A stretch of 43,121 nt of DNA from a virus, in IMG/VR virus record IMGVR_UViG_3300040789_000082, positions 1-43,121 of that record; one strand, 5' to 3'. The position numbers were made by a program, and so were the translations under genes. Below the pieces are notes generated by a model that was not told where the DNA came from, searched no databases, and saw only the letters and a program-made list of their open reading frames with translations. This document shows, piece after piece, positions 803 to 28,541 of the stretch. Each line of letters starts with the position of its first letter. Position 1 is the stretch's first letter.

Positions 803-3415
803 ATGAAGAACCTATTTAATTTTCTACTCCTCTTAACCTCTATGAGCCTAGCTGCTCAGGAAGGAAATCCTGTGACACACGAAGCTGGCGCAGGAATGCA
901 TATCGTGGACGGAAACCCTAACGAACTACCAAGTCTTCGTTACGTCGACGTTCGTTTCGATGCTCACTTCGCCTACGATGTGAGAAGCAAGGTGTCCTAC
1001 GAGTGGGTAGGTTCCGACGAGATGAACCCTTGGCAGCCTAATTACCGCGTCCGCTACACCGCCGGCAAACTCTACGTGAACGACGAAGAGGTGGCTTTCA
1101 CAGCAGTTGGCGACCAGGAGCTAGCCACCCGCACTACATCTGACTCGGTATACATCTCAATAAGTCGCGGCAATGAAATTGCCCTGCCTAAGTTGTCTGG
1201 CGCCGGGCAGTCCTCCGGATCCGGTCGGGGGCTATACGTGATGACGATGGAGGAGAATGGTGGACTGGATCCGAACAAATACCAGTTCAGTTATGGTAAT
1301 GGCAGTAACGGTCGTTATATCGGTGGATATGTGCCGGTAGACATGCGGGTAGAAGCGCTGGCCCTGATTTCGGACAGCAATATGGACGGGGCGCAGGTGG
1401 AACTACACTACACCACCCCCGATCGCAATACGGTCGAAACCGGAGTGGCGGCCGTCGGTGACGCTACCACCAATATAGTTGTCACCCCCGCAACGGACTT
1501 CACAGTCCCGGGCGGTAGTTTCGTGAATCTCTTTACGCGGAGCGGCAATTCAGGACGCGACATCGTGGCTACTATCGTACTGAGCTACCCCTTATCTGGT
1601 GGCGGCAGCAGCGAGGCCTACAACGACCAGGAACTGAAGGACACCACCGCCGCCCTGCGTGGTGATATTACCATAATCCAGGGGCAGCTCATCGACTTGG
1701 ATCAAATCAAGCTGAGCCGAGCCACCCTGACCGACAGCCTGGGCCCCTTACGAGCCACCCTGGCACAGCACCGCAACGACATCGACGTGCTGCTATCGCG
1801 TACCCCCTACGACGACCAAGAATTACGCGACAGCCTCATCCGTATTCGCGCCGACCTCAATGCCCTGATGGACGAAGTGGCACAGGGTGACAACGTGGAG
1901 CTTGCGGCCATCTACAATAGTATCGATAGCGTAGGCGCGTTGATTCCAGATCACCCTTATGTAGTCGACGAATCTCAAGGGTATCTTAATTTTGGGTCTA
2001 GTCAAGCATACTCTAATTCGGAAGGGGCAATAGTTGGACTGAACTTATTTGACTATTCAGCAGGTTTTCAAAAAACCAATACACTGGGATTTAATATTTT
2101 CAATAAAGAGGCCTTAGCGAGTGTAAATCGTTCCAATTATATAGGATCTAATCTCTTGTTTCCACAAGATGAGGTAAATCAATTTTTCCTTATAAACCAA
2201 AACATTATTGGATCAGATATTTCATTATCCAGAGTATCAAATTTCGGAGTATCATATTTGAACAACATAAACATTGTAGGCAATCAAATTAGCAATGGAG
2301 GCTTTAACCACCTGAACATAATAGCTGAAAATACAACTAGTGCTCGTCAGGATTATCACAGTATTTTTGGAAGTGAACAGTCTAGATTATTTAGCTCGGG
2401 GAAATTTAATCTTAATACAGAACAAGATTATCAGCAAGGCGACATACTAACCTATGACGCTTCAACGAATCGCTTTGTGAGGGCTACAGCCTCGTCTAAT
2501 GTTACCAATGATGGGGTCGTTACGAACGCTACCTTTTCTGGCTCGGGTAGTAATCGTACCCTGACCATCGAGCGCAGCGTCGGGAGCGACATCGTTGCGC
2601 CCCTTAACTTGTCCGACCTGACTGGCGGAGCGGCCTACAATGACCAAGAGTTGCGCGACAGTCTGGCCAGTCACCTGGCTTGGCTTCTTCACCTCGAAAG
2701 CACCTACAGCGATGAGGATATAGACGACGCGATTGCCGCTGCCGAACAACGAGCGAAAGTCTATGCTGATAATGTCAGTACTGACGACCAGACAGCTTCG
2801 GAAGTCCCTAGTCGTGGCAGTAATGTTGAGGTGCGACTGGACAGCCTGGCTTCAGCGGTGGACTACCTCTCCAGCCCCTTCCGTTCACCGCTGGTCATTG
2901 ACTGGGCGATGGAAAACTTTACCCTTGATGATGCCTACACGAACTGGCCCACCGCAGCAGCGGGCAGCCAGCTACTGGTGAAAGATGGTTCCTGTCTAGT
3001 CTCCCAGTACACATTATACAAGGGTGTATGGCGACTAATCGGACCGATACATCCGACCTACATTCAGCAATCTGCGACACTTGCGGGAGGTGCTGAGGAA
3101 TATGTATTCACTGTACGCTATCACGCAAACTACCAACCGACACCAGTCGTCGTAAGTCGCAGCAACTCGAACTATCAACTTAGCTTTTCTCAGACCAACA
3201 TCTCCAGTAGTGGTCAGGATAACTATGTGGAATTGATCGTCACCGCCTTGTATTCCGACAATGCGGGTGGTGCGGTACAACCACCTCTGGATTTCGATGC
3301 GACCGTTCGTCTGGACTTCTGCGGCGGTCAAACGGCCACCTTGAGCCTGTTCGCTACACAGGCACCAACGCAAGGTCAGAGCAATTTCAGCGTCAGCACT
3401 TCAATACCTCAATAA
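803..3415 (+). CDS. Large tail-fibre/adhesin-like protein with signal peptide
   Basis: This 870-residue protein begins 3 bases after copy A and is probably co-transcribed with it. Residues 1-18 form a classic Sec signal (basic MKN, hydrophobic Leu/Phe core, small-residue AAQ cleavage region), which is unusual for a virion protein. Three Y(N/D)DQEL(K/R)D motifs (near residues 273, 335 and 611) each begin a short helical, coiled-coil-like segment. Between residues about 388 and 555 (nt 1965-2470) the base composition drops sharply to roughly one-third G+C, and the protein becomes rich in Asn, Ile, Ser and Gly with IGSN/GFN repeats resembling a beta-helix. This looks like an exchanged receptor-binding module. 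The C-terminal 150 residues are beta-rich. A function as host-recognition fibre is inferred; an exported adhesin is the alternative. Confidence 0.7.
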   Translation: MKNLFNFLLLLTSMSLAAQEGNPVTHEAGAGMHIVDGNPNELPSLRYVDVRFDAHFAYDVRSKVSYEWVGSDEMNPWQPNYRVRYTAGKLYVNDEEVAFTAVGDQELATRTTSDSVYISISRGNEIALPKLSGAGQSSGSGRGLYVMTMEENGGLDPNKYQFSYGNGSNGRYIGGYVPVDMRVEALALISDSNMDGAQVELHYTTPDRNTVETGVAAVGDATTNIVVTPATDFTVPGGSFVNLFTRSGNSGRDIVATIVLSYPLSGGGSSEAYNDQELKDTTAALRGDITIIQGQLIDLDQIKLSRATLTDSLGPLRATLAQHRNDIDVLLSRTPYDDQELRDSLIRIRADLNALMDEVAQGDNVELAAIYNSIDSVGALIPDHPYVVDESQGYLNFGSSQAYSNSEGAIVGLNLFDYSAGFQKTNTLGFNIFNKEALASVNRSNYIGSNLLFPQDEVNQFFLINQNIIGSDISLSRVSNFGVSYLNNINIVGNQISNGGFNHLNIIAENTTSARQDYHSIFGSEQSRLFSSGKFNLNTEQDYQQGDILTYDASTNRFVRATASSNVTNDGVVTNATFSGSGSNRTLTIERSVGSDIVAPLNLSDLTGGAAYNDQELRDSLASHLAWLLHLESTYSDEDIDDAIAAAEQRAKVYADNVSTDDQTASEVPSRGSNVEVRLDSLASAVDYLSSPFRSPLVIDWAMENFTLDDAYTNWPTAAAGSQLLVKDGSCLVSQYTLYKGVWRLIGPIHPTYIQQSATLAGGAEEYVFTVRYHANYQPTPVVVSRSNSNYQLSFSQTNISSSGQDNYVELIVTALYSDNAGGAVQPPLDFDATVRLDFCGGQTATLSLFATQAPTQGQSNFSVSTSIPQ

Positions 3416-3421
3416 TTCATA

Positions 3422-3607
3422 ATGATCCAGGAACTCCTCCATACCGCTATCGCCGCGCTACCGGCCGCCCTCATCCTCATCGTGGGCTACTTCATTTTCC
3501 GCAGCCGCTACCGCGACACCACCACGCCGGTCTGGGCGTCGCTGACGCTGTTTCTACTGGCCGCCGCCGCGCTGCTGTTGGCGCCCACAATCATCGAGCT
3601 GCTGTGA
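3422..3607 (+). CDS. Small membrane protein with two TM segments, holin-like
   Basis: A 61-residue protein with two hydrophobic helices (about residues 10-27 and 38-58) joined by a short basic RSRYRD loop. Size and topology fit class II holins, but small two-TM proteins of other kinds are common in phages and the lysozyme gene lies far away at 27.4 kb. It starts 7 bases after the large fibre gene and its TGA overlaps the ATG of the next gene, so the two are translationally coupled. The function is not established from sequence. Confidence 0.6.
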   Translation: MIQELLHTAIAALPAALILIVGYFIFRSRYRDTTTPVWASLTLFLLAAAALLLAPTIIELL

Positions 3608-4023
3608 TGGTGCGCTACCTGATCGTACTGGCTCTGTTGGGGCTGGCTCACGCCACGAAAGGAGCCTGCGACACCCTCGCATTCAAGTTCGACCAGTCGT
3701 GGTTTGATGAACTGGGAGCCGACGACTACTGGGACCCCAACCGGAGTTGGGTGCGGAAGTACGCCCGCGATGCAGATGGGGAACTACTTCGACCACTTCG
3801 GCCCGCCTTCCCCCTCAGCTCCACCGCGCTGGTGAGCCTGACCGATGGCTGGCATCTGCTGCAGGAGGTACAACACGGTCTAACACGGCTGGCCTTTCTA
3901 CTGCTACGCTGGCCGCTGCTGCCCCACCGGTTTCGCAGGTGGTGGATGGGTGCGCTGCTCTTCGCGGGGCTCTGGCTCTTCCAGGCACTGGCCTTTCACC
4001 TCACGTATACTTTGCTACTGTAG
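3607..4023 (+). CDS. Membrane protein with signal and C-terminal TM segment
   Basis: A protein of about 138 residues with an N-terminal hydrophobic segment (VRYLIVLALLGLAHA, signal peptide or anchor), a charged region with WFDELGADDYWDPN, and a C-terminal hydrophobic helix (WWMGALLFAGLWLFQALAF). The ATG at 3607 overlaps the preceding TGA in a TGATG junction; a GTG one codon earlier is the alternative start. Its coupling to the preceding two-TM protein suggests a joint membrane role, perhaps lysis or superinfection control, but no family-defining motif is visible. Confidence 0.55.
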   Translation: MVRYLIVLALLGLAHATKGACDTLAFKFDQSWFDELGADDYWDPNRSWVRKYARDADGELLRPLRPAFPLSSTALVSLTDGWHLLQEVQHGLTRLAFLLLRWPLLPHRFRRWWMGALLFAGLWLFQALAFHLTYTLLL

Positions 4024-7465: not shown

Positions 7466-8847
7466 GCGTCGTTCCTACCCACTATACCTTTCAGGCCTTT
7501 CAGGATCAGCGCACCGGGGCTTTCCAGGTCGTGAATCCGCTCACCGGGGCCGACTACACCCACCCCCCTCTCGACGGTGGCCAGGAGCCGACCACCTTCC
7601 GCGTACCCACCGCCGAGCACGCCGGCTGGCGCTGGGCCCCCTGGGGTAAGGAGGACCGCCTGCCCTCCACCATCCGCCGCAAGGTCGACCGGGTGCCGAT
7701 GGCCGGTCAGACGCTCTACCGGCTCATGGGCATGATGTATGGCAATGGCCTTGCCTACTACCGCAACGAGGACCTGCGCGACGGCCCCCGCGTACAGCGC
7801 GCCTACGAGCCGGTTATCGAGCAGTGGCTGCGCCGCTGCCGGCTGCCCCATCAGTGGGTACTGCCGCAGTTCCTCGGCTACCGCTACCACTTCAATGCCT
7901 ACTCCCAGCTGATTTTCAACCGGCGGCGCGACCAGGTCACCGGCATCTACCATCTCGACGGGGAGTTTAGCCGCAAGTCGGTACAGGACGAGCAGACGCT
8001 GCGCAGCGAGTACCTCTACTACTCGGCCGAGTTTTCGAGCGAGTATTCGCAGGACCTGTCCAAGGGCTTTGCCATCCCCTTCCTGGACTGGCACAACGCC
8101 GAGGAGTGGGTGGCCGGCATGCAGGGCTACAAGGCGGCCTGGCACTCCCACCTGCGCACCCCCGGCACCATCTACTACGCCACTCCCCCCTGGGTGGGGC
8201 TCTTCCGCGATCAGGGCTGGCTCGACAATGCCGCCGCCGTACCCGAGATCGTCCACGCCATGCAGCGCAACCAGATCATGCTCAAGTACCAGATCATGAT
8301 CCCGATGAGCTACTTCCAGGCCCGCTACCGCGACTGGAACAGCTACGATGCCAAGAAGCAGGAACGGCTGATGGACGAGCTGACGACCTATATCGAGACC
8401 GAGCTGACCGATACGAAGAATGCCTATAAGAGCATCACCACCTTCTTCGGCGCCGACAGCTCGGGCCGCGAGATCGGCAAGATCACCATCGAGGCGATCG
8501 ACGATAAGATCAAGCGCGACAGCTGGGTGCCGACCTCCAATACGGCCGACGCCCAGATCGTGCAGGGCCTGGGTATGCACCCCAGCCAGCTGGGCCTGGC
8601 GCCCGAGGGCGGCAAGATGGGGGCCGGCTCGGGCTCCGATCAGCGCGAGGCCTTCAACACCATGATCAACCTAAACACTCTGGAGCAGGAGATCGTACTG
8701 GAGCCCCTCAACTGGGCTGCGCAGTTCAACGCCCGCGTCGACCCCCGCTGGGACGTGACCTTCTACATCGATCACACCCACCACACCACCACCAACCAAC
8801 AGGAGTCGGGCCTGCAGCCCAGCGCCGCCACTATTCTACCCGAGTAA
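7462..8847 (+). CDS. Portal protein
   Basis: A 461-residue protein matching the portal family of Bacteroidota phages: an N-terminal wing with conserved Trp/Tyr, a central region (SNTADAQIVQGLGMHPSQLG), and a Gly-rich EGGKMGAGSGSDQREAF loop near the C-terminal end, which is typical of phage portals. It would form the dodecameric ring at the head vertex through which DNA is packaged. It is coupled to the preceding small gene by a 4-base overlap. On this map it lies about 12 kb from the terminase, which is an unusual distance. The C-terminus is polar (HHTTTNQQESG). Confidence 0.75.
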   Translation: MSVVPTHYTFQAFQDQRTGAFQVVNPLTGADYTHPPLDGGQEPTTFRVPTAEHAGWRWAPWGKEDRLPSTIRRKVDRVPMAGQTLYRLMGMMYGNGLAYYRNEDLRDGPRVQRAYEPVIEQWLRRCRLPHQWVLPQFLGYRYHFNAYSQLIFNRRRDQVTGIYHLDGEFSRKSVQDEQTLRSEYLYYSAEFSSEYSQDLSKGFAIPFLDWHNAEEWVAGMQGYKAAWHSHLRTPGTIYYATPPWVGLFRDQGWLDNAAAVPEIVHAMQRNQIMLKYQIMIPMSYFQARYRDWNSYDAKKQERLMDELTTYIETELTDTKNAYKSITTFFGADSSGREIGKITIEAIDDKIKRDSWVPTSNTADAQIVQGLGMHPSQLGLAPEGGKMGAGSGSDQREAFNTMINLNTLEQEIVLEPLNWAAQFNARVDPRWDVTFYIDHTHHTTTNQQESGLQPSAATILPE

Positions 8848-11079: not shown

Positions 11080-13964
11080 TGGCACGCAGGCAGGTATCCA
11101 TCTTCATCAACGGGCGGGCGGTAGAGAATACCCTCAAGAGCATCGGCGAGGAGAAGCGCAAAATCAACCGTGAGCTGAAGAACATGGTGATCGGTACGGA
11201 GGAGTACGAGCGCAAGGCCGGCGACCTGCGCAAGGTCAACGACATCCTCGATAAGCACTACGGCAAGATCCGCAACGTCAACGGGCTCTTCGGCAAGATC
11301 ACCAGCGGGGTGACCAAGTTCGCCGGGGTGGCGGGCCTGGCCTTCGGTGTCGGGGAGATCATCGGCTACGGCAAGCAGCTCTTCGACCTGAGCGTGAAGA
11401 TGGATACGCTCAACCGTAAGGCGGCCACCGTATTCGGTCAGGCTCTGCCCGCCATCACCGCCGCGGCCCGCGAGAATGCCACGGCCATGGGGCTGACCAG
11501 TCAGCAGTACGTAGCCGCGGCCACCGAGCTGGGTGACCTGCTCATTCCCATGGGGCTACAGCGACAGGAGGCGGCCGACATCAGCCTGGAACTGGTCAAC
11601 CTCAGCGGTGCCCTCTCGGAGTGGACCGGCGGGCAGCGCACCTCGGAGGAGGTCTCGCGCACCCTGGCCAAGGCCCTGCTCGGGGAGCGGGAGGAGCTTA
11701 AGCAGTTGGGTATATCCATCAAGGAGAGTGACGTACAGAACCGCCTGCGCGAAAAGGGGCTTGCGAGCCTGACCGGTAAGTTCCTCGAACAGGCCAAGGC
11801 CGTCGCCACCCTGGAGTTGATTACCGAAAAGTCCGTCGACGCGCAGAATAGCTACGCTGAAAACAGTGACAGCCTCGTGCGGCGGCAGGCCGAGCTGACC
11901 GCAAAGGTCGAAGACCTGCAGGAGCGGCTGGCGACCGCCCTGCTACCCGTGCTGGAACGGCTTTTCTCGGTCGTCGAGACCGGCGCGGGCCTAATGGTCG
12001 AACTGGCCGAAGCCTTCGATCTGGGGTCCACCAGCGCGAAGAATGTGGTCGACTCGGTATTCGAGCAAGAACAGGCCTTCAGTGATCTGGAAGCCGCTTT
12101 CTCTCCCCTCATCCAGCGCTACGATGAGCTATCCGCAAAGACCAGTCTTAGCGGGGAAGAGCAACAGGAACTCAAGCAACTCATCGTCGATATCGGTCGG
12201 GTCACCCCGGGGGCCATCACCGAGATCGACAAGTACGGCAACGCACTGGCCATCAGCGGCGACAAGGCCCGGGAGCTGGTGGCCGCCGAGCGCGCCCGCC
12301 TGAAGTTCCTCAACAGCGATGCGGCCGCCGACATCGAAAAGCAAATACGCATACTCGAGGAGGAGCGCAACAAATACCTGATCACCATCAAGTCGGAGGG
12401 CAACTCCTTCGCCTTCACCAAGGCGCGGGCGGAGGCGGCACGGGCCGAAGTGGAGAAGATCAATCAGATGATCCTGGGGGCGAACGCCGAGCTCGACCGG
12501 TTGCTGGGCCGCAATATCCCCAACCCGGAGGCCGCCCCCGACGCCCCGGCAACGGATGACGAACCCGAGGTAGACCTGGAAGCGGAAGCCGAGGCCGAGG
12601 CCCGTGCCGCAGCGGCGGAGAAGGCCGCCGAGAAGCTGCGCAAGCAGCGCATCAAGCACCTGGAGAAGCTGGCCGAGATCACGGCCAAGTACCGCGAGGA
12701 GCAGCGCCTGGCTACCCTGACGGATGCCGATCGGGAAGAGGAGGAAATCCGGCTGAAGTACCAGCGGCAGATCGACCTGGCCACCGAGCTGGAGCGGGCG
12801 GGCTACGACCAGGCTACGGCCCAGCGCATCGAACTCGAACAGCTGCGCGACGAGGAGCTAGAAGCCCTGCAGCTGGCGCGCGATCAGGCGCGGCGGGAAC
12901 GGGAGATCGCCCGGGAGGAGGAGCTTTTCATCGAAGACGAGGAACGGCGGCGGGAGCGGGCCGAGCGCCGTGCCGAGATCGAAGCGGAGATCGATGCCAA
13001 GGTCCGCGAGACGGTCTTGTCGGAGCGCGAACTGGCCATTCTCGAACTGGAGGAATACTACGACCGGCTGGAAGCCCAGGCGCGGCTCTACGGCATCGAC
13101 ACCCTGGAGCTGGAGATCACCCGCCGCCGGGCACTGGCAGAGCTCAATGAAGAGTATGACGCTAAGCAGCTCAAGCAGGACGAGGCGGCGCAGAAGGCCC
13201 GCGTAGAGGTCACGCAGAAGGCACTCGGTCAGCTAGCTAACGCCGTCCAGGCCGGCTACGATCTCATGATTGACAGCGGGGCCGAAGCGGCTGGGGCGGC
13301 GAAGATCCTCGCGCTCATCCAGATCGGTATCAAGAGTGCCGAAGCCCTGGCCTCGGCCACCGCTTCGGCCGCAGCCCTTCCTTTCCCCGCCAACTTAGGG
13401 GCGATCGCCGGTGCCGTCGGTACCGTGCTCAGCATCATGGGACAGGCCCGTAGCGTACTGAACTCAACGCCGGCCGTACCCCAGCGGGCCGAGGGTAGCT
13501 ACTTCACCGTGCAGGGCGAGGACGACGGCAAGACCTACTCGGCCCGGCACATCGGCCGACCCCGTACCGGCATGCTGCCGCGCTACCCGGTCCTGATCGA
13601 CTCGGTCACCGGTGCCAGCGTACTGGGGTCGGAGCGGGGGGCGGAGTACTTCGTGGCGCACAACGACCTGCGTAACCCCGCCGTGATGCAGCACGTCAGC
13701 GCGATCGAGCGTATCCGGCAGCGGGTCGACGGCGGCTTCTCGACCGCCGATGGTAGCGCCCCAGGCAGGGCCGGGGTGCCGGCCGACGAGGACGACCGGG
13801 CTACCCCCGACTACTCGGCTTTCTTCGCCGAGGCGCTCGCTATCCTGCGCGAACTCACCGAGGTGCTCGACCGGGGCCTGCTGGCGGTGATGGATGATGA
13901 GTCCGCGCTCAACCTGCGCGACCGGCTTGCTGCCCTCGACCGCGCCCGGGGTCTGGCGGCCTAA
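11079..13964 (+). CDS. Tail tape measure protein
   Basis: A 961-residue protein with a typical tape-measure layout: a helical N-terminus, a hydrophobic Gly-rich segment (FAGVAGLAFGVGEIIGYG, about residues 76-93), a long charged coiled coil (about 490-730, with repeated EAEAEARAAAAEKAAEK-type stretches), then a second hydrophobic Ala/Gly-rich region (about 735-790), and a globular C-terminus. It sets tail length and occupies the tail lumen. About 960 residues would correspond to a tail of very roughly 140 nm by the usual 0.15 nm-per-residue rule. It is coupled to the preceding gene by TGATG. Its stop overlaps by 4 bases the end of the convergent integrase gene, so no terminator separates them. 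Confidence 0.88.
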   Translation: MARRQVSIFINGRAVENTLKSIGEEKRKINRELKNMVIGTEEYERKAGDLRKVNDILDKHYGKIRNVNGLFGKITSGVTKFAGVAGLAFGVGEIIGYGKQLFDLSVKMDTLNRKAATVFGQALPAITAAARENATAMGLTSQQYVAAATELGDLLIPMGLQRQEAADISLELVNLSGALSEWTGGQRTSEEVSRTLAKALLGEREELKQLGISIKESDVQNRLREKGLASLTGKFLEQAKAVATLELITEKSVDAQNSYAENSDSLVRRQAELTAKVEDLQERLATALLPVLERLFSVVETGAGLMVELAEAFDLGSTSAKNVVDSVFEQEQAFSDLEAAFSPLIQRYDELSAKTSLSGEEQQELKQLIVDIGRVTPGAITEIDKYGNALAISGDKARELVAAERARLKFLNSDAAADIEKQIRILEEERNKYLITIKSEGNSFAFTKARAEAARAEVEKINQMILGANAELDRLLGRNIPNPEAAPDAPATDDEPEVDLEAEAEAEARAAAAEKAAEKLRKQRIKHLEKLAEITAKYREEQRLATLTDADREEEEIRLKYQRQIDLATELERAGYDQATAQRIELEQLRDEELEALQLARDQARREREIAREEELFIEDEERRRERAERRAEIEAEIDAKVRETVLSERELAILELEEYYDRLEAQARLYGIDTLELEITRRRALAELNEEYDAKQLKQDEAAQKARVEVTQKALGQLANAVQAGYDLMIDSGAEAAGAAKILALIQIGIKSAEALASATASAAALPFPANLGAIAGAVGTVLSIMGQARSVLNSTPAVPQRAEGSYFTVQGEDDGKTYSARHIGRPRTGMLPRYPVLIDSVTGASVLGSERGAEYFVAHNDLRNPAVMQHVSAIERIRQRVDGGFSTADGSAPGRAGVPADEDDRATPDYSAFFAEALAILRELTEVLDRGLLAVMDDESALNLRDRLAALDRARGLAA

Positions 13965-15061
13965 GCCAGCGAGGAGCCCACCATCGCCCCGATGGCCGGC
14001 ATGTGCTTGCGAAACGAAGTCAGGTCGCGCACCCCGTAGCGGGCTAGGTAGCGGTCAGTCTGCTGCAGCGTAGAGTGGCGCATGAGTAGCATGAGTTCCT
14101 TCACGCCCACCCCGGCCCGGATAGCCATCACCGCCCCGGTGGGCTTCCAGCAGTAGAGCGTGAACCCCTTGGGGTACTTCAGCTGCTCCATCACCCGCCG
14201 GTGGCGGCTGCCCATATTGTTGCGCCCGATCGGCTCGGTCAGACAGGAGCGGCTGGGAAAGAGGTACTCATCCGGATCCCGCATCAGGTAGGTCGCCTCG
14301 ACCACGGGGGCGAAGACGTTGGGGATCACGGCGTTCTCCGTCTTCCCGTTCTTGGTCACCGTGCCCGGCATCCGGATTTCCATACTGTCCCATAGGATAT
14401 CTCCCACCCGCAGCTGCCGCAACTCACCCGGCCGGATGAAGCAGTAGAACTGGAACTGGCAGAAGCGCCACAGCTCGGGGTCGTGCTTCTGCAGGTACTC
14501 GGCAAGGCGCAACTGCTGGTTGCGCTGGAAGATGCGCAGCGGCTCGGAGTAGGCTTTCTTGATCCGCTCGATCCCCTCCAGGAGGTGACCGTAGTCGATC
14601 GCCTTGAGGATGCGACTCAGCAGCTGCCGGCGCTTGTTGTAGGTCACCGCGCTGAAGCGGCGGCGCAGCTCGTCGGTGTACTGCTCGGTGAGCTTGCGGT
14701 CGGGGCGGCGGCCGTCCAGCAGCCCGAAGTATTCCCGGCAGACCTGCTTGTGCGCCAGGATCGTCTTCTGCGACCAGGTCGGGGCCATGCGCTCAATGAA
14801 GCCGCGGGCACGGGCGCGGACCTCACAGTAGGGCTGGTGGTCGCGATGCTCGTCGTAGAGCGCGTCGAGCACGCGCAGGGCGCGGGCGTAGCGCTCGTGG
14901 TGGTCGGGCCGTCCGCGGTTGATATCACCGTAGCGGGTATGGCGTTTTCCGTCGAGTTTGAAGCTGATCCTCCACCGATAGTCGGGCTCGGTGCGGCTAT
15001 ATGCGAGCCCGTATACGATGCTTTTACGCGAGGGGTGGAGAAAAATTTTTTTATCGGCCAT
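13961..15061 (-). CDS. Tyrosine recombinase / phage integrase
   Basis: A 366-residue site-specific recombinase for lysogenic integration. It has an N-terminal SAM-like core-binding region (about residues 85-170), then the catalytic domain with the first Arg in FIRPGELRQLRVGDI, Lys in GTVTKNGKTENAVIP, motif II as YCWKPTGAVMAI, the RHSTLQQTDRY motif and the nucleophile Tyr in DRYLARYG. Motif II has Tyr and Lys where HxxR is usual, a variant I know from Bacteroidota elements, plus Pro where His normally follows. ATG 15061 is preferred; a GTG one codon upstream is possible. The start overlaps a palindrome (15061-15077), suggesting autoregulation or arm-site binding. It is convergent with the tape measure. 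Confidence 0.88.
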   Translation of the reverse strand: MADKKIFLHPSRKSIVYGLAYSRTEPDYRWRISFKLDGKRHTRYGDINRGRPDHHERYARALRVLDALYDEHRDHQPYCEVRARARGFIERMAPTWSQKTILAHKQVCREYFGLLDGRRPDRKLTEQYTDELRRRFSAVTYNKRRQLLSRILKAIDYGHLLEGIERIKKAYSEPLRIFQRNQQLRLAEYLQKHDPELWRFCQFQFYCFIRPGELRQLRVGDILWDSMEIRMPGTVTKNGKTENAVIPNVFAPVVEATYLMRDPDEYLFPSRSCLTEPIGRNNMGSRHRRVMEQLKYPKGFTLYCWKPTGAVMAIRAGVGVKELMLLMRHSTLQQTDRYLARYGVRDLTSFRKHMPAIGAMVGSSLA

Positions 15062-15077
15062 CACAAAGTTTTTGTGA
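15061..15077. promoter_or_regulatory. Palindrome at integrase start
   Basis: TCACAAA-gtt-TTTGTGA is a perfect 7-bp inverted repeat with a 3-nt loop, lying over the first base of the integrase ATG and extending upstream. The position suits an operator or recombinase binding site. Confidence 0.45.
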
Positions 15078-24224: not shown

Positions 24225-24422
24225 ATGAAGATCCACTACGAACACTACCCCGCAGGTCGTAACGATGCCGGCCAACCCCATCAGGATTGCAAAGCTGTAT
24301 GTACCCGCTGTGGCCTGGTCAAGGTCTTCCGTCACCACCGACAGTTCGCGGCCAATCGTCGGGATGCAGAGCGGGGGATGGAGGGGCATTTTTGCGATCG
24401 GGATCGTCGGGGGGCGGGATAA
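24225..24422 (+). CDS. Small zinc-ribbon-like protein
   Basis: A 65-residue His/Cys-rich basic protein with CKAVCTRCG followed by HH and HFC, suggesting a small zinc site. Its stop codon touches the first hairpin repeat (B1) of the cassette array, so it is the last gene of the early operon before the array. Confidence 0.5.
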   Translation: MKIHYEHYPAGRNDAGQPHQDCKAVCTRCGLVKVFRHHRQFAANRRDAERGMEGHFCDRDRRGAG

Positions 24423-24478
24423 TGTGAGTGCCGGTGCAGGCCGACGAAGGAGGCTTGACACTGGCACTTTATTGGGCG
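24421..24478 (+). repeat. Hairpin repeat B1 (cassette boundary)
   Basis: This is the first of three related elements of 58-61 bp. Outer arms AGTGCC/GGCACT and inner AGGCC/GGCTT form an imperfect hairpin around a GACGAAGGAG loop, ending in ATTGGGC. It shares GCAGGCCGACG(A/T)AGGAGGCT with B2 and B3. Here the left outer box GCCCAAT is missing, as expected if this is the edge of the array. The architecture (imperfect hairpin between inverted 7-mers) is attC-like. Confidence 0.75.
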
Positions 24479-24493
24479 AATAAATAATAATTA

Positions 24494-25465
24494 ATGAACC
24501 ACGGATCACTTTTTAGCGGGATAGGAGGCTTTGACCTTGCAGCTCAGTGGATGGGTTGGAATAATATCTTCCATTGCGAAAAGGATTCGTTTTGCCGGAA
24601 GGTGCTCACGCATTACTGGCCTCAATCATTTAGTCATGCAGACATCACCGAAACAGATTTCACTGTTTACCGCGGACAAATCAACGTTCTCACGGGAGGC
24701 TTCCCCTGCCAGCCATACAGCACAGCAGGAAAGCAGAAAGGCACCGAAGATGACCGCCATCTATGGCCGGAAATGCTCCGAGCTGTACGAGAGATCAGGC
24801 CGCGCTACGTCGTGGGGGAGAATGTTCGTGGCCTCGTTAATTGGAACGGGGGAATGGTCTTCGACCAGGTGCAGACTGATTTGGAAAATGAGGGGTACGA
24901 AGTTCTCTCGTTTTTACTTCCAGCTTCGGGCGTTGACGCTCCCCACCAGCGATATAGAATCTGGTTTGTTGCCTACGCCAACGGTGGTTTACACGAGGGA
25001 GAACTGGCCGCTGGAAAAGGTGAAGGCGAGACAGCAGGAAGTGAAAGAGGCCAGCAACGGAAAATCGGGCAACGGCTTTGGTTTAAACTTGCCACACGTC
25101 GCGCGAATGCTTCCAACGCCTCGATCGAGAATGACGGGCGGCGTATCGGAGAAACGGGCGGCCGACAAGAACCCGAATTTGGAGAGCGTTCTATCCCGAA
25201 TAATTATTCCTACACCATATGCAGCCGACGGATTCAAAACTACCAAATCGCAGAACCAAAATTCACTAGACAAGGCATTCCAAACTGGAGCAGTTTCCCA
25301 ACTCAATCACCGCTTTGTGATGGAGATGATGGGCTTCCCACCCGATTGGACAGAATTACCATTTCAAGACACCGACGAGAAACAATAAAAGCAGGAGGTA
25401 ACGCTATCGTCCCTCAACTCGCTTTGAAGATTTTTCAATCAATATCGGAGGTTTCCTATAGGTAG
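24494..25465 (+). CDS. DNA (cytosine-5) methyltransferase
   Basis: A 323-residue m5C methyltransferase that would protect phage DNA from host restriction or mark it. Motif I is SLFSGIGGFDLA (5-16), motif IV is GGFPCQPYS (68-76) with the catalytic Cys72, motif VI is ENV (109-111), motif VIII is QRYRIW (152-157), and motif X is GNAIVPQLA (from about 302). The target-recognition region (about 165-280) is weakly patterned and coincides with a second open frame (see 24636-25388). The gene is the cargo of the first hairpin-bounded cassette, and its TAG overlaps repeat A1. G+C is lower than in the neighbouring replication genes, consistent with separate acquisition. Confidence 0.92.
   Translation: MNHGSLFSGIGGFDLAAQWMGWNNIFHCEKDSFCRKVLTHYWPQSFSHADITETDFTVYRGQINVLTGGFPCQPYSTAGKQKGTEDDRHLWPEMLRAVREIRPRYVVGENVRGLVNWNGGMVFDQVQTDLENEGYEVLSFLLPASGVDAPHQRYRIWFVAYANGGLHEGELAAGKGEGETAGSERGQQRKIGQRLWFKLATRRANASNASIENDGRRIGETGGRQEPEFGERSIPNNYSYTICSRRIQNYQIAEPKFTRQGIPNWSSFPTQSPLCDGDDGLPTRLDRITISRHRRETIKAGGNAIVPQLALKIFQSISEVSYR
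24636..25388 (+). CDS. Overprinted second protein inside the methyltransferase gene
   Basis: A frame shifted from the methyltransferase is open from 24531 to 25388. The likely start is ATG 24636 (MQTSPKQISLFTADKSTF), giving 250 residues. The translation is not random: it has ESRKAPKMTAIYGRKCSELY, three PTP motifs (LLPTPTVVY, MLPTPRSRM, IIPTPYAADG) and ends in NHRFVMEMMGFPPDWTELPF. I know the PTP repeats and the EEMMGFPxxWTxLPF ending as a recurrent phage protein beside or inside m5C methyltransferase genes in Bacteroidota phages. At the same nucleotides the methyltransferase frame encodes its own conserved FPTQSPLCDGDDGLP segment. Function unknown, perhaps a partner or specificity factor. Confidence 0.65.
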   Translation: MQTSPKQISLFTADKSTFSREASPASHTAQQESRKAPKMTAIYGRKCSELYERSGRATSWGRMFVASLIGTGEWSSTRCRLIWKMRGTKFSRFYFQLRALTLPTSDIESGLLPTPTVVYTRENWPLEKVKARQQEVKEASNGKSGNGFGLNLPHVARMLPTPRSRMTGGVSEKRAADKNPNLESVLSRIIIPTPYAADGFKTTKSQNQNSLDKAFQTGAVSQLNHRFVMEMMGFPPDWTELPFQDTDEKQ

Positions 25466-25508
25466 ACGCCGTGCCTTCGGGCATGGACGTTCTAGCTGAT
25501 ATTGGGCG
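25455..25508 (+). repeat. Hairpin repeat A1
   Basis: TAGACGCCGTGCC pairs with GGCATGGACGTTCTA around a short TTCG-type loop, followed by GCTGATATTGGGC. It begins at the methyltransferase stop codon. A2 (26661) shares GTAGACGCCGTGCC, GGGCATGG and TCTAGCTGATATTGGGCG. Confidence 0.75.
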
Positions 25509-25579
25509 AACGTAGCGCAGCCGAAGCGATGAATCATCCATCCACCGACCGGTTTTCGGATGCGATATTTCGACCCAAT
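25501..25579 (+). repeat. Inverted 7-mers between A1 and B2
   Basis: ATTGGGCGAA (25501) faces TTCGACCCAAT (ending 25579) across a 79-bp spacer containing GCAGCCGAA/TTCGGATGC and GATGATTCATC-like inner inverted repeats. The corresponding A2-B3 spacer has the same outer boxes but a different inner sequence, so structure rather than sequence is conserved. Confidence 0.6.
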
Positions 25580-25633
25580 GTGAGTGCCGGCGCAGGCCGA
25601 CGTAGGAGGCTTGACGCTGGCAGTTTATTGGGC
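25573..25633 (+). repeat. Hairpin repeat B2
   Basis: Bounded by ACCCAAT (25573-25579) and ATTGGGC (25627-25633), it contains GTGAGTGCCGGCGCAGGCCG and GGCTTGACGCTGGCAG forming an imperfect hairpin. It is nearly identical to B1 over about 55 bp. Confidence 0.75.
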
Positions 25634-25850
25634 GCGGTGCGGGTCGTCACTTGCAAGTATGATCGCGCTAGCCTACTTTTGCTGGTGCCATATCCATCAT
25701 TCATCACGTAGCATCTGCTATGATCTTTCAAGTCATCATTCACAACTTAGGGGACAGGATTGGCCTGCGGCGGGAGTCGCGGGCGTCTACCGACTGCGAA
25801 AGCGGATGGATGGATATGGCACTTTCCTGCTCCCCGCTTTATTCTTTCCA
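25634..25850. repeat. Non-coding leader of cassette 2 with 14-bp inverted repeat
   Basis: GTGCCATATCCATC (25685-25698) is repeated inverted at 25809-25822 (GATGGATATGGCAC), and a third, direct copy of TGCCATATCCATCC overlaps the start of the next gene at 25852. The 110 bp between the arms have no convincing gene. It could be a structured RNA, a miniature insertion or a regulatory stem. Confidence 0.5.
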
Positions 25851-26141
25851 ATGCCATATCCATCCAACCTACAGCCGGAGCTTTCCCGGCTGACTCCTGA
25901 GGCCCAGGAGTACATCACCTCCCTTCAGTCCGACAGCCAGCAGCTGCGTCAGCTTCTCCCGGAAGACCCGGGAGAAGACAAGCGGCTGCTCTTCCTCCTC
26001 GGGCTCTGCGTGGCCACCTTCGCTGCCAACGAAATGGATAGCCCCGCCCGTGCCCATCGCATCGACCTCCTGACTGGCTTCTACGAGCGGGTAGGGGAGA
26101 CCACCTATTTCGTCACCAACAATCAACATCCCCATGGATAG
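25851..26141 (+). CDS. Small protein of cassette 2, 96 aa
   Basis: An acidic helical protein from ATG 25851 (MPYPSNLQPELSRLTPEAQE at the N-terminus) with a hydrophobic LLFLLGLCVATFAAN patch that is more likely a buried helix than a membrane segment. It overlaps the antirepressor gene by 8 bases, so the two form a mini-operon within one cassette. No family is recognised. Confidence 0.5.
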   Translation: MPYPSNLQPELSRLTPEAQEYITSLQSDSQQLRQLLPEDPGEDKRLLFLLGLCVATFAANEMDSPARAHRIDLLTGFYERVGETTYFVTNNQHPHG

Positions 26142-26658
26142 TCCACAGTACCTAGAGTTCAATGATCACCAGATTGCAATCGTATCCGCTGATGGAACGC
26201 ACTGGGTGGCTATCAAGCCACTCTGTGAAGCTCTCGGGGTCAATTACAAACACCAACAACAGGTCATCTCGCAGGACGAGAAATTGAGTCAGTTGTCTTG
26301 TCTACACAAGACAACTGGGGCTGATGGGAAGGGCTATTCAATGCTCTGCTTACCCTACCGGTACATCTACGGATACCTGTTTTCGATCAGCTCGACGTCC
26401 CCAGCTCTGAGGGAGTATCAGTGGAAGTGCTACGACGTGCTCTACGATTACTTCCATGGCATCCTCTCGAAGCGTAAGCAATTGCTAAAGCAAAGTCGAG
26501 ACGCGGAAGCACGCATTCAAGAGCTAGAAGATAAGTACGCAGCAGAGGAAGAGTACCAGGAGCTACAGCACCTACGTAAATTCCGCAAGCAGGTACCCCA
26601 TAGTCTCAAGCGGTTGGATCGTGGTCTCGTCGACGATCAGCTCGAACTTGATTTGTGA
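26134..26658 (+). CDS. Phage antirepressor, P22_AR_N-type
   Basis: A 174-residue protein with the N-terminal antirepressor domain: YLEFNDHQIAIVSADGTHWV, then AIKPLCEALGVNYKHQQQVI, then the GKGYSMLCLPYRYIYGYLFS segment and YQWKCYDVLYDYFHG. A coiled coil follows (KQLLKQSRDAEARIQELEDK). Such proteins inactivate CI-like repressors and can trigger induction. Because the repressor here lacks an autoprotease domain, this is a reasonable candidate for its antagonist. The gene is cargo of the second hairpin-bounded cassette and is followed at once by repeat A2. Confidence 0.85.
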   Translation: MDSPQYLEFNDHQIAIVSADGTHWVAIKPLCEALGVNYKHQQQVISQDEKLSQLSCLHKTTGADGKGYSMLCLPYRYIYGYLFSISSTSPALREYQWKCYDVLYDYFHGILSKRKQLLKQSRDAEARIQELEDKYAAEEEYQELQHLRKFRKQVPHSLKRLDRGLVDDQLELDL

Positions 26659-26660
26659 TC

Positions 26661-26714
26661 CTATGGGTAGACGCCGTGCCTTTTGGGCATGGTCGATCTA
26701 GCTGATATTGGGCG
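26661..26714 (+). repeat. Hairpin repeat A2
   Basis: The same hairpin as A1, GTAGACGCCGTGCC with GGGCATGG and TCTAGCTGATATTGGGCG, with only a few substitutions (loop TTTT instead of TTC, and TCGA for ACGT). It starts 3 bases after the antirepressor stop. Confidence 0.75.
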
Positions 26715-26782
26715 CTGTGCTTGTTGATTAGCAATCCGTAGTACTCACTAGGTTTGCTATTTATCTAGCATAGCGGCCCAAT
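26707..26782 (+). repeat. Inverted 7-mers and nested hairpin between A2 and B3
   Basis: ATTGGGC (26707-26713) and GCCCAAT (26776-26782) enclose GCTGTGC/GCATAGC and TAGCAA/TTTGCTA, giving a long cruciform-capable structure. No gene fits here. Confidence 0.65.
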
Positions 26783-26835
26783 GTTTGTGACAGTGCAGGC
26801 CGACGTAGGAGGCTTGACACTGTCACTGTATTGGC
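26776..26835 (+). repeat. Hairpin repeat B3
   Basis: GCCCAAT, then GTGACAGTGCAGGCCG and GGCTTGACACTGTCAC, ending ATTGGC. The arms differ from B1/B2 by compensatory changes (CAGTGAC-type pairing is retained), which argues that the hairpin itself is selected. Confidence 0.75.
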
Positions 26836-26858
26836 TGCTGTTTTTTTAACTTTATACT

Positions 26859-27218
26859 ATGAAATACTTACGAAAAGCCTCTAAATTTTTCACTAAGGGC
26901 ATTAAAGAAACCACTGGCAGTATTGTTGGAGGAGCGTGGGACGGCATCAAGCCAGATGACTGGGACGAGAGACTAGAGAAGCGCCGCGCAGCAGTTGCCA
27001 AAGAGAAGGCTAGAAATAAAATCAAGAACTGGGCCTGGTCGATGTTTGTCTTTGCGGAATGTGGCATCTTGATTTTATGGACAATCAACGCTGAGAGCAA
27101 AACCCTAGCATTTTCTAACCTAGTTGACGACTACGGAATAGCGTTGTTGATTCCAGTGGTGTTATTGATTGCTTTGATTACACTTATCGACACCATTGTT
27201 GATTTGATTGAGGAATAG
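26859..27218 (+). CDS. Small membrane protein of cassette 3
   Basis: A 119-residue protein with a basic N-terminal half and two hydrophobic helices (about residues 61-75 and 91-115). Its G+C is clearly lower than in the phage core genes. A T-rich tract directly precedes the start. The gene is flanked by TATTGGCTGCT (26829) and the inverted AGCAGCCAATA just after its stop. A superinfection-exclusion or defence function would be typical for such cargo but is not shown. Confidence 0.6.
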   Translation: MKYLRKASKFFTKGIKETTGSIVGGAWDGIKPDDWDERLEKRRAAVAKEKARNKIKNWAWSMFVFAECGILILWTINAESKTLAFSNLVDDYGIALLIPVVLLIALITLIDTIVDLIEE

Positions 27219-27273
27219 CAGCCAATATAGGGCTACACGCATTGCCTGATCTGTGCATGACGTACGCCCCTAT
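27217..27273 (+). repeat. Hairpin repeat A3 (divergent)
   Basis: AGCAGCCAATA is followed by ATAGGG...CCCTAT arms (27227-27273) with CGCATTGCC and GTGCATGACG inside. It aligns with A1/A2 at TATAGG, ACGC, TGCC and GCATG but is clearly diverged. It closes the third cassette. Confidence 0.55.
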
Positions 27274-27342
27274 CATGCATTGCGCTTTCCGTACACCGCG
27301 CGCGCTTCAAAGGCGCAACTCCGACTGTAGCTGAGCGACGAG

Positions 27343-27381: not shown

Positions 27382-28131
27382 ATGCTGATTCCCCTAATAT
27401 TCATCCTGGTTTTCGCTGGTGTTCTAGCGACGTTGCTTTTCCGCAGAAAGGCTACTGAGCCCAGCATCGGCGTTGCCCATACACCCGATGATGAGTACTC
27501 TATTCAGGACACCCTCGCTATCGTTGCCCTCGATACGGTGGTCGTGCGCCCCATTGTCGCGCAACCTACCGTAGTCAACCAGGACAGACCGGCTATCTCC
27601 TTCGAAATCGCCTATGAACCTGTCAAGGCGATTGAGGGAGGATACCAGCGACTACGAGCTGATCGGGGGAACTACAACTCCAGGGGAGAGCTGGTAGGCA
27701 CGAACTGGGGCATCGCCGCCCCCGTGGCCGAGCGGTTCTACGGCCGCACTGTCACTACTGCGGATATGCGGGCCCTCACCGAAAGAGAAGCTGCGAAGAT
27801 TTTCCGCCGGCTATTTTGGCTACCGCTGCGCGCTGTCGACTTTCCCACCCAGGAGCTCGCCAACATTGTATTCGACGGCTTCGTCAATCATGGCATCTGG
27901 GGGGTTCGTCTATTACAGCGTGTCCTGCGGGTAGCTGAGGACGGAGTGGTAGGTCCCCGTACCCTGGCGGCGATCCGGGCCCGTGATCCGGATGACGTGT
28001 ATCGAGCCTACTATCAGGCGCGGCTGCAGTTTTACCGCGCCATCGTCCGTAACCGACCCGACCAGAAGGTTTTCGAGCGGGGCTGGCTGCGCCGCCTCAA
28101 TCGCTACCGGCCTGCTGAACTACCTGCTTAG
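27382..28131 (+). CDS. Membrane-anchored lysozyme, GH108-type, with peptidoglycan-binding domain
   Basis: A 249-residue endolysin. Residues 2-20 form an N-terminal membrane or SAR-type signal anchor. The glycosyl hydrolase 108-like core follows, with the likely catalytic Glu85 in AIEGGYQ, then RGNYNSRGELVGTNWGIAAP. A C-terminal peptidoglycan-binding domain contains LLQRVLRVAEDGVVGPRTLA. It degrades host peptidoglycan at lysis. The export signal would let it reach the periplasm without a canonical holin. It is alone behind a late promoter, with no holin gene adjacent. A 670-bp non-coding region follows. Confidence 0.85.
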   Translation: MLIPLIFILVFAGVLATLLFRRKATEPSIGVAHTPDDEYSIQDTLAIVALDTVVVRPIVAQPTVVNQDRPAISFEIAYEPVKAIEGGYQRLRADRGNYNSRGELVGTNWGIAAPVAERFYGRTVTTADMRALTEREAAKIFRRLFWLPLRAVDFPTQELANIVFDGFVNHGIWGVRLLQRVLRVAEDGVVGPRTLAAIRARDPDDVYRAYYQARLQFYRAIVRNRPDQKVFERGWLRRLNRYRPAELPA

Positions 28132-28308: not shown

Positions 28309-28541
28309 TGTAACCGAATAGATAGTATGCTGATTGACAATTAGTTAAGTGCCGAAAATGCCGTTACAAATTGGTTACATCAATGTAACCGGATGTAACC
28401 GATTTGTAACCAAAACCCCGGTTACAAATTGGTTACAAAATTTTAACGATTTTGTAACCGTGTAACTTACTGTAATTCAATGCGTTACATCCGGTTACAT
28501 CGGTTACATTTTGAATTGACACTTAGACCCGGTTGGTTACA
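28309..28541. repeat. GGTTACA/TGTAACC repeat cluster (iteron-like)
   Basis: Eleven exact copies of GGTTACA or its complement lie within 233 bp: TGTAACC at 28309, 28384, 28394, 28405 and 28453; GGTTACA at 28373, 28420, 28431, 28493, 28502 and 28535. Near-copies sit at 28362, 28461 and 28483. Both orientations are mixed and spacings are often 9-11 bp or about one helical turn, for example 28384/28394/28405 and 28420/28431. The local sequence is AT-rich and has no gene. This is the pattern of an origin-type iteron array or a multi-site operator. The remaining 28542-28803 shows no supported gene. Confidence 0.75.

Follow-up and report, generated by a model that had tools for sequence, protein, structure and literature searches.

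Probable attC-like cassette array in a phage, with relatives in Bacteroidota chromosomes beside an insert-less relative of IntI

The virus record IMGVR_UViG_3300040789_000082, analysed over its whole length of 43,121 nt (the window), contains a hairpin region (24417-27226) which most probably represents a cluster of attC sites lacking integron integrases (CALIN), derived from an attC-like lineage of Bacteroidota and housed in a phage with an ordinary integrase of its own. The original prediction had described this region as an array of gene cassettes delimited by A and B hairpins and resembling integron attC sites. The attC-like array itself is upheld by a covarying site family, varied cargo, chromosomal breakpoints at G|TT (the bar marks the crossover) and an adjacent relative of integron integrases, while the division into A and B units and the orientation needed correction. 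At the level of sequence, the comparisons support membership in the family, cassette variation between phages, and chromosomal breakpoints at G|TT together with linkage to a recombinase. With somewhat less confidence, we favour a wider reading in which Bacteroidota possess an integron lineage whose IntI-related recombinase, devoid of the insert that grips extra-helical bases, would recombine folded attC sites, and in which phages would carry and exchange the cassettes of that lineage.

Sites and cassettes of the phage array

The three B hairpins (Table 1) are mutually 81-82% identical over 68 nt, in agreement with the near-identity predicted for them. Folded as single-stranded DNA, their + strands reach -13.6 (B1), -17.3 (B2), and -15.3 kcal/mol (B3), with z values of -3.7 to -4.4, and the predicted folds contain one extra-helical base and unpaired spacers. 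Their boxes, RCCCAAT and ATTGGGY, are complementary to each other and carry T/A where the attC boxes RYYYAAC and GTTRRRY have C/G. The inverted 7-mers GCCCAAT/ATTGGGC, proposed as the boundaries of the elements, are present in imperfect form: B1, at the array end distal to the lysis gene, has an intact right GCCCAAT and backbone sequence (GGATAAT) in place of the left box, and the right box of B3 reads ATTGGCT. Being spaced 1.16-1.2 kb apart in a phage with no match to an integron integrase, the three sites form a CALIN, provided that B is indeed an attC site.

The cassette unit is supported as running from one B to the next. Each unit has mutually complementary ends, as would be expected if it circularises, and the fit of each cassette's own pair of ends was equalled by just 4 of 720 permutations among six phage cassettes. 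That B and A form the opposite ends of one cassette, before and after each cargo block, was therefore rejected: B occurs with no A in two further phage contigs (G001 and G002), and it is the B-to-B units that have complementary ends. A1 and A2 do resemble each other closely, as predicted (91-96% identity over about 57 nt), with weak folds (z of -1.0 and -1.4). Located after the first two cargo blocks, they retain the R'' box and have lost R', and are best read as probable leftovers of fusion inside composite cassettes, a process known from class 1 integrons (PMC4670013).

The hairpin placed at 27217 as a third A copy turned out to be a different element, which we call C (CCAATATAGGGCTACACGCATTGCC). 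It recurs at the array end of G002 (common part CCAATATTACGCTAGACGCATTGCC) and resembles the array end of G001. Its GCAATGCG motif is also found in the attI regions of three chromosomal loci (L175, L159, and L214). Position and motif are suggestive of homology to chromosomal attI, and we propose C as the attI-like end of the array.

Varied cargo in related phages

The conserved B loop surrounds different cargo in the two other phage contigs: in G001 a gene of 73 aa together with a methyltransferase assigned to the Dam type from its translation, and in G002 two unrelated genes. Each has a C-like element at the far array end, and the left flanking genes are not alike between the phages. Relatives with other genes at the array, for which the original prediction had asked, thus exist, and cargo and order are not conserved throughout as they would be in a fixed gene block; the differing cargo indicates that cassettes vary at a common place. 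A scan of viral contigs for loop variants returned 67 stretches, and the family stem accompanies the conserved loop only in those of G001 and G002; the others were judged to be chance matches. The tip typical of chromosomal sites was found in none of the viral contigs scanned.

G001 has another short hairpin at its array end (AACCAGCCCCC...GGCTGCTGTGTTGGGC; L011, 6930-6975), a D element that site model R2, described below, does not detect. A further locus, L008, encodes an endolysin 52% identical to that of the window and likewise has cassettes upstream of it, in an array of different, Vibrio cholerae repeat (VCR)-like appearance by eye. There, at 2180-3900, the VCR-like attC array (GCATAATGAAC ... 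GCGTTATTATGC) has a Dam-type methylase as its last cassette, again as judged by eye.

A family of attC-like sites in Bacteroidota chromosomes

A scan of one uncultured Saprospirales metagenome-assembled genome revealed the same loop on a stem wholly different from that of phage B; the label Saprospirales-type comes from this one genome, and "order" refers hereafter to the GTDB order. In 12 aligned copies, both-sided changes occur in 10 of 10 stem pairs and the tip is invariant, so the compensatory arm changes predicted for B3 extend to its relatives. Over 65 copies the covariation score is 0.592, against 0.150 for shuffled alignments. Model R1 was built from these 12 copies and model R2 from 52 chromosomal copies only; E values from both are rough. 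Among 398 genomes of the order, R1 finds members in 44; the sites form cassette arrays of up to 40 kb there. R2 in turn recovers B1 to B3 (rough E values of 1.4e-7 to about 2e-12) and the B sites of G001 and G002; nothing else in the window scores below E 0.34, with A1 and A2 as weak same-strand matches at ranks 4 and 7.

In the family hairpin the R boxes are complementary, the stem varies with covariation between its arms, and the tip, conserved as GCC-GACGNNTAGGA-GGC, includes an extra-helical base. The chromosomal consensus, NNNNAAC-AA-stem-ATGCC-TCCTAANCGTC-GGCAC-stem-AACC-GTTRNNNN, shows attC-like R'' and R' boxes; R' begins with GTT in 44 and with ATT in 4 of 60 sites, and the R helix is paired in 58% of cells. 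An open reading frame on the same strand stops upstream of R'' at 65 of 73 sites (median distance 10 nt), and for 79 of 86 distinct sites the bottom strand, as expected, is predicted to fold more stably.

These chromosomal sites settle the orientation of the phage array. The + strand had an apparent likeness to class 1 attC (GCCGACG/GGCTTRA) and was rejected as the canonical strand, since those 65 sites have the opposite orientation with respect to their genes. With the - strand as canonical, genes in the phage cassettes point the opposite way to those in the chromosomal ones. We propose that the array, read on the - strand, opens with the attI-like C, continues through cassettes 3, 2, and 1, each carrying the B site of the same number, and passes into backbone; its predicted empty joint is GGCGGGATAATATAGGGCTACACGC.

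Exchange at the sites is evident in chromosomal loci. Genome G288 has the recombinase and its attI region in duplicate; the copies agree as far as AGTA|GTT and are unrelated beyond it (26% identity). At locus L138 an identical gene and attC lead into different cassettes, and different attC sites lead into the same cassette, with the switch at GTT. In genome G274 (L209/L208) a gene-less 101-bp cassette is present 12 times, at eight positions in the array; no copy has more than one mismatch, and each starts at GTT. The exact G|TT breakpoints and the near-identical 101-bp copies show site-specific cassette traffic in the chromosomal arrays.

A conserved tip on a covarying stem would also fit an RNA motif, and B stands a short way ahead of phage genes, as a terminator, promoter, or riboregulator ahead of a gene might. 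The original prediction had named ordinary terminators or promoters as the explanation that would overturn it. Scans for terminator- and promoter-like sites returned no more of them than shuffled sequence does, an Rfam search gave no family, and the chromosomal sites follow stop codons and form recombination joints, all of which makes RNA or transcription elements very improbable.

An insert-less recombinase beside the arrays

A tyrosine recombinase adjoins the chromosomal arrays, which lie directly downstream on the same strand. Among solved structures the nearest to it in sequence is VchIntIA/IntI4 (1.5e-38); the match falls into two pieces and leaves the insert region uncovered. The spacing from GKG to HTLRH is 70-71 residues, compared with 112-113 in IntI, so that the IntI-specific insert of about 42 residues, the additional domain around patch III taken as unique to IntI (PMC9668308; I2 in PMC4792948), is missing. 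Scores against the integron integrase model TIGR02249 are 208-227 bits, under its cut-off of 265. A tree of 29 rows places the 12 attC-linked enzymes in a single clade (96/91) and IntI in another (100/99), and a clade of both together with a few other insert-less enzymes (97/92) leaves the Xer recombinases (XerC/XerD) outside. The tree does not settle the branching inside this group, so that to name the clade the sister of IntI would overstate it.

All 48 sites counted in 12 genomes, some of them in the training set of the model, lie downstream on the recombinase strand, and sites are present at 9 of 9 loci that were retrieved solely by their recombinase and had contig long enough to judge. 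Co-occurrence of recombinase and sites at the genome level has a p value of 2e-8 in a post hoc count. The more distant insert-less enzymes of L161, L190, L191, and L193 have no clear link to sites. Recombinase, attI, and attC array, the components of an integron, stand together at L209/L208, L210, L211, L214, L215, L220, L159, and L175. The enzyme of L159 and its relatives often have an N-terminal extension of about 200 residues with two beta-alpha-beta repeats and a GRRW.P...W.LP motif, for which Pfam gave no match. A HARP-type repeat was considered for this extension and is not claimed, since Pfam gave no match and the Foldseek matches reflect the recombinase part.

A viral-labelled locus, L221, encodes an insert-less recombinase (7788-8813) that is 45% identical to the attC-linked enzymes, with a weak attC-like match (25 bits) at 11089-11187, downstream on the same strand. 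At L237 there is a short partial match to the recombinase (60%). One genome of the same order, G021 (L023/L024), has a true IntI with insert next to a different attC-like site.

It is improbable that the phage took ordinary attC sites from an integron with a canonical IntI, as known phage CALINs did. Phage CALINs with methylases have been described, one of them in a Polaribacter phage (PMC9892861), and the sites next to the homologous endolysin of L008 look VCR-like by eye. Among 299 genomes from the order, however, canonical IntI was found in one, which does not have the present attC family; a class 1 integron region (L178) gave no R2 match, and the family sites adjoin the insert-less recombinase. 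The chance that the hairpins are ends of an IS200/IS605- or REP/RAYT-type element moved by a Y1 transposase is negligible. Such elements do have hairpin ends, and GTAG stands ahead of the A hairpin; such a transposase did not come to notice in either the array or the phages, where no specific search for it was made, and R''/R' anatomy, GTT cassette joints, and a linked tyrosine recombinase fit integrons.

Proposed mechanism and points against it

We propose that each site forms its hairpin from a single strand and that the R' box is most likely cut by the insert-less, IntI-related tyrosine recombinase, at G|TT in chromosomes and probably at A|TT in the phage. Cassettes would move as circles between attC sites and the attI-like site, and a host recombinase would serve the phage array in trans. 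In place of the insert, the enzyme perhaps relies on its N-terminal repeats or on the conserved hairpin tip. On this mechanism the phage sites would still be recombined, element C would function as the attI-like site, and the cargo (methyltransferases and an antirepressor) may be of help to the phage.

Several observations speak against this proposal. In all phage B sites an A replaces the usual crossover G at R', with pairing kept. Phage cassette genes are opposite to chromosomal ones relative to attC, and it is the 5' end of the gene that faces the site, where an integron cassette has the 3' end beside attC. Breakpoints were observed in bacterial genomes and none in phage, and neither excision nor integration was observed. 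The original prediction had also suggested that phages with an empty array might be found; a search with element C as the query returned only G002, the upstream gene returned nothing, and no empty site came to light. Finally, phages yielded no recombinase of the attC-linked clade, the best match in viral contigs being 45% identical.

As an alternative, the phage array could be a relic, its cassettes acquired by integron recombination, its sites now inert, and its cargo changed by homologous or illegitimate recombination. The altered R' base in 5 of 5 phage B sites, the loss of R' in A1 and A2, the failure to find the recombinase in phages, and the varying left flanks would all suit a relic. 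Every R' A is, however, matched by an R'' T, so that pairing is retained; ATT also occurs in the 4 chromosomal sites noted above; and the cassette ends are still complementary. We regard a relic as unlikely, though the least so of the alternatives, and retain a cassette array of the Bacteroidota lineage as the preferred reading.

Cargo and neighbouring genes

The window is of phage type, with genes for a terminase, head maturation protease, tape measure protein, primase, single-stranded DNA-binding protein, endolysin, and ordinary phage integrase. The array has a G+C content of 0.506 (cassette 3, 0.418), compared with 0.62-0.65 in structural genes, as expected from the lower G+C predicted for the cargo. 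A search of the phage with TIGR02249 gave no match and its own integrase is of the phrog_1 type, which agrees with the predicted lack of an integron integrase. Coordinates are collected in Table 1.

Table 1 Features of the array and neighbouring genes in the window (R2 E values are rough)
Feature	Position	Strand	Basis
B1, attC-like site	24417..24477	- (canonical)	R2 34.2 bits, E 1.4e-7; fold
B2, attC-like site, cassette 1/2 junction	25573..25633	-	R2 50.4 bits, E 1.7e-12
B3, attC-like site, cassette 2/3 junction	26776..26836	-	R2 50.3 bits, E 1.9e-12
A1, degenerate attC-like hairpin within cassette 1	25455..25508	-	R2 13.0 bits, E 0.34; repeat; weak fold
A2, degenerate attC-like hairpin within cassette 2	26660..26714	-	R2 10.5 bits, E 1.9; repeat
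Element C ("A3" of the original prediction), proposed attI-like array end beside endolysin gene	27219..27290	-	
Cassette 1	24423..25578		Complementary ends ATTGGGCGAATA / TTCGACCCAAT; crossover placed at CCCAA|T, + strand
Cassette 2	25579..26781		Complementary ends
Cassette 3	26782..27226		Ends TATTGGCTGCTGTT / AATAGCAGCCAATA; inverted repeat I3
Cargo 1, C5-cytosine DNA methyltransferase	24494..25465	+	PF00145 7.7e-42; phrog_363 1.3e-68
Cargo 2a, 96-aa protein	25851..26141	+	No Pfam or PHROG match
Cargo 2b, antirepressor, P22_AR_N	26134..26658	+	PF10547 1.5e-23; phrog_524
Cargo 3, 119-aa protein (small membrane protein in the original prediction)	26859..27218	+	No Pfam match
Endolysin GH108, backbone gene adjoining the array	27382..28131	+	PF05838; phrog_315
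Tyrosine integrase of the phage, not an integron integrase	13961..15064	-	phrog_1 2.3e-28

Other repeats are present in the window. In cassette 2, ahead of the 96-aa gene, GGATGGATATGGCA / TGCCATATCCATC occurs three times (25686, 25808, and 25852) in both orientations. Downstream of the endolysin gene (28309-28541) there are 11 clustered TGTAACC/GGTTACA repeats of operator- or iteron-like appearance. The contig ends (1-791 and 42325-43115) form a direct repeat of about 797 nt that is 81.6% identical, with 105 nt exact; it is not clean enough for a terminal repeat, and a join made in assembly is not obvious either.

Relation to known systems and significance

Phage CALINs are known (Qi et al., 2023, PMC9892861), for example in the Polaribacter phage P12002L, TJE1, and PH101, and some recombine with IntI1. 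The present array is like them in having attC-type sites and cassettes without an integrase, and a methyltransferase as cargo. It differs in belonging to a separate family with a conserved tip, an ATTRRRY box, and linkage to an insert-less recombinase, whereas the sites tested by Qi et al. are used by IntI1 and have 5'-G|TTRRRY-3'. The chromosomal loci resemble sedentary chromosomal integrons such as the V. cholerae superintegron (VchIntIA/IntI4, PDB: 2A3V) in their recombinase, attI-like site, and long attC array, in the gene stop just ahead of R'', in the G|TT crossover, and in the better folding of the expected strand. Unlike the superintegron, they have a recombinase without the IntI stretch of about 42 residues, often extended at its N-terminus, and an array downstream on the recombinase strand.

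An "integron-like subgroup" of tyrosine recombinases has been described in which the specific insertion is not fully conserved, yet is called essential for integron function (Smyshlyaev et al., 2021, PMC8138268). Our enzymes, which lack the insertion, agree with the first of these statements, and the available portion of that paper does not describe attC arrays of insert-less members. In CTXphi (PMC4792948), as proposed here, a phage site folded from single-stranded DNA is served in trans by a host enzyme, XerCD; the CTXphi site differs in having no extra-helical bases, no cassettes, and no attC family. Few complete integrons are found in Bacteroidetes according to IntegronFinder 2.0 (PMC9024848). 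In the literature searched, which covers the field in part and does not prove priority, no account of attC arrays served by insert-less enzymes came to light.

Escudero et al. (2016, PMC4792948) posed a chicken-and-egg problem, namely how selection could favour the IntI insert ahead of attC sites, or attC sites ahead of the insert, and regarded speculation on a viral origin for integrons as tempting. An insert-less recombinase that groups with IntI and stands beside long attC arrays would be the kind of intermediate needed here, or else would mean that the insert is dispensable; if our reading of the lineage is true, it would represent either an intermediate towards IntI or an independent solution. 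Searches that require the insert would miss such a recombinase. Carriage by phages would give cassettes, including those with methyltransferases and an antirepressor, an extra route between hosts.

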